Positions 34,401 to 43,400 of a DNA stretch of 64,000 nt are shown piece by piece (the stretch's first letter is position 1; each line of letters begins with the position of its first letter). Both the position numbers and the translations under genes were made by a program. Below the pieces are notes generated by a model. The model had not been told where the DNA came from and did no database searches. It was given only the letters and a program-made list of their open reading frames with translations. The stretch comes from Diogma glabrata (lineage: Eukaryota > Arthropoda > Insecta > Diptera > Cylindrotomidae), in contig OY856186.1 in NCBI GenBank assembly GCA_963693315.1, forward strand, positions 81,163,040 to 81,227,039, read 5' to 3'.

Positions 34401-37400
34401 TTAAGACTCCATGTATAGATACCAAAATGTATCGTTTAGTGATAAAATTTAGAAATTCGTAAGCAACGACCTTGTTGGACAAGTGCCACGCCAGATTCGA
34501 TCAAATGCTTTACCTTCACGTTCACCATTTTTTTCAGATATGCTGTTCTGGTCAATTGGTCACATGCTTCAATTTTATTTGCCCAACAAAAAGTTTTTTA
34601 CTTAGCCTGTACATTAAATACTTTATTGAATGTTAGCGTAAGCTAAAAAATTAAATATGAATTAAATAAATTAACGGTTACACGAAAAACAATAAGCACT
34701 GTTTATAGTTTAATCCCTGTCAACAATGATGCACATAAAACAATTTGCTATAACAATTTCAATAACCACCATAACACGTAGAACTAAAAGTATAATTAAT
34801 AAAACATAAGTACCCCAAAAAAACAAGCAGTCCACGCCCTTAACGTTGCAGGTAAATCATTATCTACCACATCAATATCTTTACTAAAACGATTTATAAT
34901 ACGTCCGACTGGTGTTGTATCAAAAAACGTAGTCATTGGTGAACGTAAAACATTAGATAATAGTTCGTTATGTAGATACCGAGCAGCACTCAATGCTCCA
35001 ATATAAAGTGATATAGTTGACAGGAAAACAGTGAATACTGTGAATTTTATGCAATACATACAAAAATAAAAAATTAAAGTTAAACACAATTTAAAACTCA
35101 TAACATTTAGTAAATTAAACTATGAAGATGTTAGAGAGAAACATGATCAAATTTCTATTTTGAAACAAACTACCAATTGCAAATCAAATAATCTACATTA
35201 AATTTGTTATTAAGAAAATAGGGAGAAAAATAAAACAAACAAAATCTAAATCCAAACTAAATCTGTAATAATAATTTGTAATTACCGAGAAACCCATATT
35301 TAGCCATGATCTTAATATATGAGGTAGAACATTATCGACGACATCAATATCTTTTGAGAAACGGTTTAATATTCTTCCAAGCGGAGTTGTATCAAATAAA
35401 TTCATTGACCAACGGAGAACGTTGGTAAGCAGTAAAGAATGCATTTCATTCGCGGCATGTAAGCAACCAAGTGCCATAATTAAAGAAGTACCAAAGTTTG
35501 ATATAGCTATATAGAATAGTTAAATTATAAATGTAAATAGTGTTAGTTAACAGGTTAGTTTTATTGTAAGTTCAAGCAAAATGTTATTACTACATCAAAT
35601 TTCTATAAATTTGAACCATTGTTATAAATACATTGATAAATAAATTTTAATAATATAAATAAAAAATATTGGCAACGCTGATTTCACCATTACTTCTGAA
35701 TATAAAAATTCATGGCTGACTGTTCACCTATAGTTCTTCCTTAGAACTTAAGTTATAAGACAAAATTATAAATGTAAAACAAATATAATTTTACCGAAAA
35801 TGACCAATGATTGATTATACATAGAAGAAATGTTTATATTTCAAGGTATTTAAAGTGAATGAAATTGAAAACAAAAAGTAGTTCAGTATGCTCTTCCCCC
35901 AACACTTTGTGATTTTCTGGCACAGGTCCAAATTATGACCGGAAGGGACAATCAAGAGATCATATCAGTATATATTGAAAATAAATTGTACTGAAAGTAA
36001 AGTTTGTTGACAATAACTAGGTGGATATTAAGTATTTACGCTTTGCTGTTTACACGTTCTGCTAATTATTCTGGTGTGATATTTTACCAGCATTTAAAAC
36101 TCAACGCGGGTCATAATCAAAACTCATGGCAAGCTCATGAAGTTTTAGTCCTCTCTCATTTATAACGCTTAGAACATTTTCTTTCAGCTCATCTCATTGA
36201 CTAAAATAATGGACAAATCAATGTGTAAAAATGTACGAAATCAACGAGCTTGTTGATCAAGTTGGCAAGTGATATTCTATCAAATGCTGTCCGAGATGTC
36301 TTTCATTAGTCTACGGATTAACTCCAAACTAACTTCGTCGCCTTTGAACAACATCTAGCCAATCATGGCTCGAATTTCAAATAATTCGCAATATCCAACA
36401 CAATTTTGCATGCAACTTTTTTTTTGTCAAAAGCCGTTTACGTCTGTGTTTTAGTGCAACGCGTCGCCAAAAGGAATAATCGTCGTCAGTCTATTGCAAT
36501 AAAAAGGGACGGTTGCATGCTTGAAAGTGTAGGTCATGGAAGGGAAACGTTTGTATCTATCACGTGAATGTGAATATCCGTGCGTAGGATTCGCACTCTT
36601 TTTCTTTTCGTAGGTTATATTACCGTATCCAGTATACGTGTTCTCAATTGCCATAAATGCAGCCTAGTTGTCAGATCTACTAATAGTCTTAGTAATTAGC
36701 CCGGCTAAAGGCATCGTCAAGGTGTGGGACGTCCCCACGATTTGTAACAACGGAAATTTCGGAACCCAAAATTTTTGGACCAGAGTTTTGTTTTGTTTGC
36801 GGTTTGCTTACGGTTCTTAACTCTGATGTCTTATAAAATTATCTCTATTATTAAAATTTCCCACGCTTCGCTTTTACAAATTACCTAAAAATAACTATTA
36901 GTTTTTTGCTTTTATCATTTTTCGTATCAATTATCAAGTTTTTATGTATAAATGTGTAATTCGGTTTTCTGAAATCCGATATTTTCTTGTGTGGAAAAAT
37001 AAATGTTGAAACCGTTAGCTATTTATTTTTTGAAGAGATAAACGTTTGATAAAACAAGCAAGATTTACTGAGTATTTGCGGTTTAAATCCATCGATTTTT
37101 CATAGGTATTGCGAGGACAAGCGTTTGTGTTTTTTGTTCAAATTAAAACTTGTGTGTTTTTGTTTGTCTCTGAAAAACGATTTCGGTTTAGATACACAAA
37201 TTACAATTTTCAAAACCTAAGATAACAGTCACGAATAAGTTTTTGGTTATTATTGTTTAAATTCTGTTCCCAATACCAAATTTACTTATTACAAAAATAA
37301 TTAAGATAAAATTAGAAGCAAATAAAATAGATAAAAATAAAATAACTTTTGTTTGTATAAATTTAAAATGCATGAACCATTTCATCAATTGAATAATAAT

Positions 37401-40400: not shown

Positions 40401-43400
40401 GAAATTTGTAATAATAAGAGGTTGTCGTGGTTTGATCGAATTTTGGCCATCCAACTTAATGCATTTTTTAGATCTTCATTCACAGTTACGACAGCATTTC
40501 CTCTGGTGGGATTTATTCGTTCGTACATTTTACTCTAAAACATAAAACATTTATTCATACATTTGACTCTTTAAATTAAAATAAGGTCACGTAGTTTTAT
40601 TATTCTTCTTATTATTTTAAATTAGTGTGTTATTAATCTCAATTTAATGAATACATTTTTTTTGAACAAATTTGCATGATTCTTATTAAAATTGACTTAC
40701 ATACAATTAACAATAGCGCAGATATTAATGAGTCATTTAATTTCTTCCTGGTTCGTTGAAAATATAACGGACAAAGAAGAAGAAAATAATAAGGCAAAAT
40801 TTCGATATCTATTGAACATCTTCCCCAAGTTGATAATTGCCAGTACATCACTACTAACACGCTTGATGTGGGAAACCAAAACAGCACCACATGTTGCAAT
40901 AATGATAACTGATAGATCAATAATAAAGTACAAGTCAGATCGTAGCATGTTCACTAAGTTATCAAAGGCGAAATTAGATGCCTTTCGCTTAAAGGGTGAA
41001 GTAAACTGGCAATAATAACCATACCACCAATTTCAATGACGAGTGGTTCGCAACGTATTGAGTGTTTCGCATCTCGGAAATAAGTCCTAATTTTTCAATC
41101 GATGCAGCACGCCAACCAAGTAATTCAAGAACTATCGACTAAAATAAAAAATTGTCAACAAGTACGTACGCGATAAATAAAAAAGACATGTCCGATTATA
41201 TTGTCATCATCCTACACTAACGTTCAAGAGATATGTGACTACATATATAGGTATCTGCAAAGGTTAAACAATTGACTCATTAAAAAAACGAACTGTCAAC
41301 TGATAAATGAACGATCATTCTGTTCAAGACTTTGTATCGTGAAATATATGGTCCACTTAAAACCACTCCAAGGATTTTGGGTGTCGTTTATTAACCAAAA
41401 CCCTTGATATTCAAAGCCTTATTGTTTTTTAAGCCCAGAAAAATCGTGAAACTATAGCGCTATCATGAAATATAAAACTCCATATAAAAAAATTTATTCA
41501 AAACAAAACACTATTCCTGATTTTTGCAAATGACAAGGCTAATTATTTTTTGCATATGGCGTTAAATAATCAGGCTTAGCATATAAAGGGTTTTGAACCC
41601 ATAACCCACACAAAAAATATATCCAATGAGCTAACAAACACGATATCCGTTGCTGGTACTAGGTTGGGGTAAATATAGGGAGATCATCACAAATGCATAC
41701 AAAGTTATTGATTGGCAGCTACCCATTATCATATATGCGACACCAGTTCGACTACTGAGTGAAACATAAGGCAAACTACAAACAACATGCTGGACTGCAC
41801 TTGGCTATCACCTCATTATGCAAAAAGACCATCACACCTGTAGGTGGACATAAAACATGTGATATCATCAACAGGACTTAGCAATTAGGGTATTCAAGGG
41901 TAGTATACCGAATACTAAAATCCCTTTGTAGGGTGGTGTTTTACAAAACCGGTACCGAATAATCGATACCAGCATAATTCGGTATTTTTTTATGCCTGTG
42001 TAGTATGTACACAGTTTTAGTCTTTCCATTTATCCAACCACTCATGATTATAATTATACAGTGAATTGGGGTACAAAACTTTGTAGTTTTCTAAAAAACA
42101 TTTTTGATTGTAAATACGGCCGAATTTGTTTAATTAATATAAACCTGAAAAAAGGGGAAGCGGAAATCGATGAAGTTTGTTAAATTTTTCGCTAAGCTTT
42201 TCGGGTAGAGCATGATGCAATTCTTTATTTGAACATTTTCTCCGTTTAAAAGCTGAAATTACCTAGATATTTGTAGGATTTGACACAATTCGTTGGATAT
42301 GAAAACGAGTCGATTTAGCTGGAGCTTTGTGAGAAGGAATTGTTAGATTTATTTTCTTTTGGCGATTTCGCTACCAAAAATCAAGTCTCTTTCTTATGGG
42401 TCAAAACCATTTAGAGTTGAAACCACAAAAACAAAAAAAAATCTCGTTAAACCAGAACCGTCTAAACCAATGCAAAATTTATCACTATTTGTCGAATTGA
42501 CCTGAACTTTGTGAAGTTGACCTGTATTCTTTTTTGGGGTTTTATTATAATGATCCCGGGGAACCGTCTGAGCTTAAGTAGAATTTGATAAAATCGGTTA
42601 AATGTGTTACAACAGTCGGATTTGTTGTTGCGGTTTTTACATGAAAACAATTTTCTACAAATTTCAATAATGTTCGAGTATCGATAGAATTTTACTGTAA
42701 TTCAATAGTTAATGAGAAATGAGTTTGTTACCAACACCATTTTATTTAGAAATAGTCTCAAAATAAAAAGAATAAAGAAAATATACTTTCAACTATAAAG
42801 AAGACACCCAAATTAATCTAATTACTAAATTAATCTATCCCACATAGTAGTTAGTATATACTCATTATTTAAATTTATTTGAATTTTACCTCAACAATAT
42901 AAACAAGCACTAATGGTAGTAGTGCCAATGGCATTTTAATTATTTCAAACAGAGTTAAGCAAACAAAAGCTTTTTCTGCGGTCAAAACGTTATCATCACT
43001 ACTTAAAACGTATGTCGTAAACGTTATAATTGAAACCTAAATTTTATAAAAAAAATATGTGGAAAAAAATTACATGTAAATAATGATGTGGTTTTCAGCT
43101 ACAACCACAATAATATATTAAATTTGAATATAACTTGTCTGTTTTAACGCTAAAAATACTTAAAAATTATTAAAAAATAGGTAATTCAATTCTTTCACTT
43201 ACCAAAAATGGTGCACACGACCAGATAAAAGATGTTCCAGCATTAACATACGCTGCTTGTCTTAAAACTTTAATTTCTTTTTCCCGAATCGTGTGTACTT
43301 GATCTTCGAAACTAGGTTCCCATGCGTATAACTTCAAAACTTTAATACCATTTAAAATTTCATTCATTAACTTCACACGATCGTCTTTATTTTTCATTTG

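Follow-up and report, generated by a model that had tools for sequence, protein, structure and literature searches.

The MRP1 gene and its alternative exons

The window, a 64,000-nt stretch of contig OY856186.1 from the cylindrotomid fly Diogma glabrata, contains a complete dipteran MRP1/ABCC1 gene at 28458-46858 on the minus strand, and all introns of its spliced model are GT-AG (Table 1). The predicted protein is built like a long MRP1-type transporter (TMD0, two TMDs, two NBDs), and it falls inside Diptera with a support of 100/100. The original prediction had placed two pairs of alternative exons, of 147 and 147 nt and of 221 and 224 nt, in this gene with good splice sites and open frames, and it was confirmed at the positions given: each of 5a, 5b, 9a and 9b is flanked by AG on its 5' side and GT on its 3' side and stays open in the gene frame. 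All four combinations of 5a or 5b with 9a or 9b are read through without a stop in the spliced model, yielding proteins of 1520 or 1521 aa.

Table 1. Exons of the Diogma glabrata MRP1 gene and the intron following exon 9b, in window coordinates.
Feature	Position	Strand	Remarks
Exon 1, coding part with start codon	46829..46858	-	N terminus resembles fly and mosquito MRP
Exon 2	46460..46756	-	Gene model
Exon 3	44283..44561	-	Gene model
Exon 4, constant, precedes 5a/5b pair	43203..44225	-	Gene model
Exon 5a, 147 nt, 49 codons, phase 0/0	42890..43036	-	TM10 end, outer loop, TM11; dipteran 5a class
Exon 5b, 147 nt, 49 codons, phase 0/0, alternative to 5a	39947..40093	-	5b class
Exon 6	39725..39809	-	Gene model
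Exon 7, first nucleotide-binding domain	37977..38687	-	Gene model
Exon 8, constant, precedes 9a/9b pair	37444..37914	-	Gene model
Exon 9a, 221 nt	35286..35506	-	TM13, coupling loop, TM14 start; array class I
Exon 9b, 224 nt, alternative to 9a	34814..35037	-	Array class II
Intron after 9b, 4929 nt	29885..34813	-	Related arrays have classes IV and III here; neither found
Exon 10, constant, after 9a/9b pair	29667..29884	-	Gene model
Exon 11, most of second nucleotide-binding domain	28714..29602	-	Gene model
Exon 12 with stop codon	28458..28649	-	Gene model

The locus is very probably the orthologue of dipteran MRP1 (ABCC1, fly CG6214), with two inherited clusters of tandem alternative exons and four predicted pump isoforms. 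In these isoforms, one of 5a and 5b would encode the segment from the end of TM10 through TM11, with the outer loop between them, and one of 9a and 9b the segment from TM13 through the coupling loop to the start of TM14; the nucleotide-binding domains would be common to all four. The large intron between exons 9b and 10 also contains reverse-transcriptase DNA (30514-31227) and repeats that are present elsewhere in the window.

Tandem alternative exons in insect MRP are of an already known kind, found in fruit flies and mosquitoes, and Drosophila melanogaster MRP reportedly has two variable internal exons (Grailles et al., 2003). Drosophila MRP peptides of 5a type, 5b type and exon-9 class I fall with the window exons, which suggests that the variable exons 4 and 8 of Drosophila correspond to exons 5 and 9 of this gene. 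The D. melanogaster cluster appears larger than the two copies present here, with MRP (8) listed for that species in an excerpt of PMC6071210. Fly isoforms carry names such as 8a 4b, an isoform whose transport of methotrexate has been assayed (PMC6185855). For the A. gambiae orthologue, PMC4234516 likewise refers to splice variants.

Ancestry of the exon pairs

Exons 5a and 5b encode 23 identical residues out of 49 (47%), and 9a and 9b encode 39 out of 73 aligned, with one one-residue gap. Many of these identical residues are encoded by different codons (14/23 and 21/39 respectively), and thus both pairs are old. When exon peptides of other insects were used as tblastn queries, the matches covered most or all of each window exon, and the best query from outside the window gave an E value of 1e-21 for 5a, 7e-24 for 5b, 7e-33 for 9a and 6e-37 for 9b. 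Class profiles also scored each exon highest with its own class: 89.6 versus 55.4 for 5a, 96.0 versus 62.2 for 5b, 121.8 (class I) versus at most 92.4 for 9a, and 133.8 (class II) versus at most 94.9 for 9b.

A first segment set, from 73 proteins hand-picked out of 235, comprised 45 exon-5 and 111 exon-9 rows, each including two window rows and one bovine-labelled row. For the exon-5 tree, two rows were dropped (a near-duplicate Drosophila row and another paralogue) and eight were added, to give 51 rows. For the exon-9 tree, 16 rows were dropped (chimeric or cut ends, paralogues and near-duplicates, including some class III and IV pieces) and two were added, to give 97 rows. The two homologue protein lists each comprised the best 120 of nearly 8000 matches.

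Window 5a joins 11 other dipteran and two beetle 5a rows on a starred branch (96/85). The corresponding branches of 5b (91/84), 9a with class I (95/77) and 9b with class II (94/94) are unstarred. The ancestry of the exon-5 pair is well supported; the assignment of 9a and 9b to classes I and II draws on the unstarred branches together with the profile scores. A dipteran-only 5a clade is absent from the best tree but is not rejected (p-AU 0.477). A 17-row set that includes beetle, dragonfly, cricket and stick insect lies on one side of a branch with 91/69, which is not significant. At the columns that separate the classes, the window exon-5 pair agrees at 5/5, 9a at 7/8 and 9b at 6/8, and neither exon-9 copy agrees with the other class. 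In a comparison within Nematocera only, window 5b follows its own class at seven of nine columns and has the 5a residue at one. Both 5a and 5b are present within one species in An. gambiae, Lucilia cuprina and Musca domestica.

Compared with its own partner, the members of its class in mosquitoes, sand flies and flies are thus nearer to each window exon, which supports the reading that 5a/5b and 9a/9b are inherited pairs, their members belonging to separate dipteran lineages, and not local duplicates. The original prediction had spoken of conserved logic and of alternative exons of the Drosophila MRP kind, and had proposed an alignment to tell orthology from separate duplication; the separate dipteran 5a and 5b lineages and the exon-9 classes I and II uphold both statements. 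It is scarcely credible that the pairs were duplicated locally in this lineage, independently of the fly and mosquito variants. Independent MRP exon duplications have been reported in different phyla (Yue et al., 2017, as told in an excerpt of PMC6071210) and the deeper branches of both exon trees are weak, but identity within pair 5 is far below that to the nearest relatives (up to 76% with dipteran 5a for 5a, 84% for 5b), and the window exons carry class-separating residues. The same 76% identity bears on another alternative, in which 5a or 9a would be a relic that is no longer spliced, so that essentially one protein is made. The donors of 5a and 9b do look weaker by eye than those of exons 4 and 5b; however, frame, length modulo 3, AG/GT and class-specific residues are kept in all four exons, and this alternative is very unlikely.

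Probable use of one exon from each pair

One exon of each pair is probably used per mRNA, in mutual exclusion with its partner. At exon 9 the reading frame adds weight to this: inclusion of both or neither of 9a and 9b leads to an early stop. Exon 5 is not frame-locked: double inclusion (1569/1570 aa) and skipping (1471/1472 aa) both stay open, so the choice would have to be made in splicing. Exactly one exon-5 and one exon-9 segment were found in 254 of 260 homologues of 1400-1600 aa, mostly gene predictions. Two exon-5 segments occur in 22 of 37 proteins longer than 1600 aa, which are taken to be gene models with alternatives joined in series or with adjacent genes fused.

Two mechanisms of exclusion were considered and rejected, namely steric exclusion between partners (the introns are 2796 nt between 5a and 5b and 248 nt between 9a and 9b) and U2/U12 incompatibility (no U12-type donor was seen by eye). 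Both points, as they apply to exon 5, together with the open products of double inclusion and skipping, would also fit an exon 5 that is not strictly exclusive, some messages carrying both or neither copy and encoding longer or shorter pumps. Against this, exactly one exon-5 segment is present in all 260 homologues of 1400-1600 aa, again mostly predictions; a double-inclusion product would lie within that length band, and an extra or absent TM10-TM11 segment should break the fold. Such leaky use of exon 5 is considered unlikely. Under mutual exclusion, the choice at exon 5 would most likely be made through competition between intronic RNA pairings, a mechanism reported for MRP in other cases. 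In 12 duplex tests on the introns of this gene, with 100 shuffles each, the lowest numbers of shuffles that reached the observed energy were 4, 4 and 7 out of 100, which is unconvincing across 12 tests.

The exon-9 array and the search for further copies

In most mosquito models and a blowfly model, the exon-9 array is colinear in the order I-II-IV-III, and class III is present in 15 of the 17 multi-exon models examined. The array of D. glabrata is I-II only, with I before II as in the mosquito models. Anopheles MRP1 has the 5a-5b pair in the same order and likewise class I before II, but its array reads I-I-II-IV-III; IV and III follow II in five of six Anopheles models, and class III is present in the sixth (An. 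albimanus). Neither class profiles nor tblastn detected any trace of classes IV and III in the window.

Further copies were sought by tblastn with the exon-5 and exon-9 peptides of the trees and with six profiles in six frames, with stops read through. Inside the gene, both methods gave only background for a third copy or relic of exon 5 or 9. The best stray match outside the gene, at 59435-59527 on the plus strand (E 8e-5 with composition correction off; profile iE 0.018), has two stops in 31 residues and was taken as chance. Since classes IV and III are missing from the window, the exon-9 set appears reduced and unusually small, and the 3' half of the array (IV, III) may have been lost in this lineage. 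The original claim of at least 2 x 2 isoforms is accordingly matched by the four open combinations, as a reduced set of 2 x 2 within the window.

Variable residues and the substrate pocket

Only five of 49 columns fully separate the sampled dipteran 5a from 5b, and the positions of MRP1 N590 and F594 are among them (hypergeometric probability 0.0085 for both, noticed after the fact). Window 5a has E590, K593 and M594; window 5b has N590, R593 and F594, the same as the mammalian MRP1 chain. The window protein (5b, 9b, without TMD0) aligns over its full length with mammalian MRP1 (PDB 8f4b/5uj9; 1592.6 bits), whose structures have a single version of each segment, 5b-like at 590, 593 and 594. 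Both N590 and F594 of MRP1 have been implicated in substrate handling.

For positions 590 and 594, 304 proteins gave 91 distinct exon-5 segments: 29 of class a (24 dipteran), 60 of class b and two undecided. All 24 distinct dipteran 5a peptides have D or E at 590 and M, L or I at 594, a tally that is partly circular because some of these rows had also served to train the class profiles. The pattern is not uniform in the five non-dipteran class a segments: the firefly Aquatica has A..HF, with F594 kept, Rhamnusium has A..RL and P0012 has N..RM, while the segments of Psylliodes and Actinostola are out of register.

Since 5a has an acidic residue in place of N590 and an aliphatic one in place of F594, the choice between 5a and 5b may tune the substrate range. 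More broadly, it is a tentative reading, held at somewhat less than even confidence, that 5a/5b is an old pocket switch conserved across Diptera (acidic 590 and M/L/I at 594 versus N and F), offering two cargo preferences by splicing, that its two forms may have diverged before flies and beetles did, and that the second cluster was pruned to its two upstream classes, leaving a natural minimal 2 x 2 system. Alternative splicing of insect MRP has been recognized for a long time, but to our knowledge its variants have hardly been compared in function. The contrast at 590 and 594 leads to a precise prediction of altered substrate use that can be tested, and four isoforms in one species would be simpler to analyse than the products of a full array. 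The question is relevant to the clearance of insecticides and plant toxins by insects.

The original prediction had also proposed that sequence differences cluster in membrane helices likely to line the substrate path. The first part holds for 9a/9b, in which the coupling loop keeps 22 of 27 positions and the flanks 17 of 46. The second part is supported in part: no enrichment of pocket residues was found in the variable exons, which contain two (F594 and M1092) of the 14 MRP1 binding residues tabulated in PMC10886794, but N590 and F594 are among the separating columns of exon 5. At the position of M1092, 9a has S and 9b has A.

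Gene structure

The four exons claimed in the original prediction, 5a and 5b as alternatives at the exon-5 position and 9a and 9b at the exon-9 position of an MRP1/ABCC1 gene, are present on the minus strand with the predicted coordinates, lengths and splice sites. In the spliced model built around them, all introns are GT-AG and every combination stays open, the four proteins having 1520 or 1521 residues and no internal stop. Mammalian MRP1 chains match the 5b-9b protein across its full length after TMD0, the N-terminal part. The window is 31% GC and contains no N.

Exons of the MRP gene model
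Exon	Position	Strand	Remark
1	46829-46858	-	gene model built around the four alternative exons
2	46460-46756	-	gene model
3	44283-44561	-	gene model
4	43203-44225	-	gene model
5a	42890-43036	-	147 nt; AG before, GT after
5b	39947-40093	-	147 nt; AG before, GT after
6	39725-39809	-	gene model
7	37977-38687	-	gene model
8	37444-37914	-	gene model
9a	35286-35506	-	221 nt; AG before, GT after
9b	34814-35037	-	224 nt; AG before, GT after
10	29667-29884	-	gene model
11	28714-29602	-	gene model
12	28458-28649	-	gene model

In a tree of 1396 constant columns, excluding exons 5 and 9, the gene groups within Diptera (16 rows, 100/100) and outside every sampled dipteran family. Its protein is 66.5-71.0% identical to nine full-length nematoceran sequences and, across 913 columns, 74.7% identical to one metagenomic protein.

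Tandem alternative MRP exons are of an already known kind, because Drosophila MRP is reported to have two variable internal exons (Grailles et al., 2003), as the original prediction had it, and reports also exist of splice variants in the Anopheles gambiae and Trichoplusia ni orthologues (PMC4234516) and of duplicated MRP exons in different phyla (Yue et al., 2017, via PMC6071210). The literature searched, with key papers beyond its reach, yielded no mention of an I-II array or of the contrast at residues 590 and 594, both described below, and priority is not claimed.

Orthology of the alternative exons

The original prediction had raised the question of orthology to the fly variants. Aligned with insect variable exons, 5a and 5b, which have 23 of 49 residues in common, match separate classes in both tree and profiles. 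The exon-5 tree has 51 rows and 49 columns; in it, 5a groups with 11 other dipteran and two beetle rows (14 rows, 96/85, starred), and 5b lies in the canonical-exon group (31 rows, 91/84, without star). Profiles gave 5a 89.6 bits with its own class versus 55.4, and 5b 96.0 versus 62.2. The nearest exons are from Toxorhynchites for 5a (76% identity) and a metagenome for 5b (84%). Both types are present in An. gambiae, in Lucilia cuprina and in Musca domestica. One branch, not significant (17 rows, 91/69), has the first dragonfly, cricket and stick insect exons on its 5a side, and so the split may possibly predate the diversification of winged insects. A weak 5a-like stretch at 59435-59527 (+) (tblastn E 8e-5; profile iE 0.018) has two stops and was taken as chance rather than a further copy.

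The two exons of pair 9 likewise match separate peptide classes, on branches without star and with profiles in agreement. In the exon-9 tree (97 rows), 9a lies in dipteran class I with sand fly nearest (32 rows, 95/77), and 9b in class II (18 rows, 94/94), which also contains dragonfly, stick insect, cricket and beetle rows. Exon 9a scored 121.8 bits with class I (other classes at most 92.4) and 9b 133.8 with class II (at most 94.9). The starred classes III (25 rows, 100/98) and IV (10 rows, 96/87) have no member from the window.

A probably reduced exon-9 array

Array order was read from 17 database models that string the variants of one species together. Five Anopheles models (epiroticus, atroparvus, gambiae, minimus and quadriannulatus) have the order I-I-II-IV-III(-III). 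In contrast, the window array is I-II only, and the intron that follows is 4929 nt long. Searches by tblastn and by profile gave no class III or IV exon, intact or decayed, in this intron or the rest of the window. The intron contains reverse-transcriptase DNA and repeats also present elsewhere in the window. Judged within the window, the simplest reading would be that the array has lost its 3' half, with classes III and IV; a copy may still lie elsewhere in the genome.

Class III occurs in 15 of the 17 models; those of D. subpalustris and Topomyia are without it, but any single model may omit exons. The Lucilia model reads I-I-I-II-IV-III, with class II just 3 bits ahead in its call. In the beetle Rhamnusium, II is followed by IV (one of three undecided) and then by III, and Timema reads II-II-(IV)-III with a 4-bit lead for IV. 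Class III is last in Ladona, Gryllus, Camponotus and Vespula, where upstream calls are marginal. The An. albimanus and Clunio models are without class IV. Phlebotomus (sand fly) isoforms include II, III and IV.

Position in the protein and pocket residues

Bovine numbering was obtained by aligning the query to 8f4b, which we take to be bovine MRP1, at 2-1326 and to 9j9f, a longer chain, at 206-1530; the offset of 204 sets W553, F594 and M1092 at the positions named in papers. Exon 5 covers residues 560-608, presumably the end of helix TM10, an outer loop and TM11, and exon 9 residues 1027-1099, presumably TM13, the cytoplasmic coupling loop and the start of TM14. Exons 9a and 9b keep 22 of 27 positions in the coupling loop versus 17 of 46 in the flanks.

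In an unplanned comparison of 11 dipteran 5a with 15 dipteran 5b rows, five of 49 columns (578, 590, 594, 604 and 605) had no residue in common, and the window pair follows its own class at all five. Within Nematocera alone, nine columns separate the classes; the window 5a follows at nine and 5b at seven. Among 304 proteins, position 590 is D or E and position 594 is M, L or I in all 24 distinct dipteran 5a peptides; of the 60 class b peptides, 49 show N..RF and the other 11 are non-dipteran. In mammalian MRP1, Phe594, located in TM11 (PMC10305233), is reported to contact the glutathione part of the substrate LTC4, and M1092 to belong to a hydrophobic pocket (PMC10353158). Arg593 forms salt bridges with LTC4 in simulation (PMC9898250), and N590A reportedly reduces LTC4 affinity (Zhang et al., 2004, via PMC10651738). 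M1092 falls in exon 9, where 9a has S and 9b has A at this position; class I has both. The 590/594 pattern is easily over-read: the column test was unplanned, only two of 14 tabulated MRP1 binding residues (PMC10886794) lie within variable exons, and the pattern varies beyond Diptera, F594 being retained in a firefly 5a-like exon.

Proposed mutual exclusion

Including both exons 9 brings a stop after 1103 residues, in exon 9b, and including neither a stop after 1061 residues, in exon 10; such messages should therefore be destroyed. With both or neither exon 5 the frame remains open, so a choice at exon 5, if exclusive, must be actively controlled. In other animals, RNA pairings that compete with one another have been reported for MRP (PMC6071210). 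In 12 duplex tests on these AT-rich introns of one species, 4, 4 and 7 of 100 shuffles matched the observed energy in the best cases, an unconvincing result that is weak evidence both for and against pairing. Exactly one exon-5 and one exon-9 segment occur in 254 of 260 homologues of 1400-1600 aa, and a single exon-5 segment in all 260. Two exon-5 segments occur in 22 of 37 proteins longer than 1600 aa, which are read as models stringing variants together.

Other elements of the window

An 800-codon ORF at 10842-13244 (+) has reverse transcriptase, RNase H and integrase domains. This element is probably an LTR retrotransposon, because repeat units found at 10497-10850 are present again at 13883-14236. 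Retroelement pieces occupy 30105-31143 in the intron after 9b, where 30105-30521 is 91% identical to 58454-58865. A similar-looking piece near 40400-41200, in the 5a-5b intron, was judged only by eye and gave no repeat hit. A tandem array at 54271-57542 (TRF rows 54732-57542) has a unit of ~629 bp, with 146-codon ORFs at the same spacing; one unit had no Pfam match. An open frame at 24861-25682 (+) with a PIH1 N-terminal domain (E 2.4e-28) is probably part of another gene. In MRP intron 2, a near-perfect palindrome of two 80-bp units at 46241-46396 could fold into a long hairpin.
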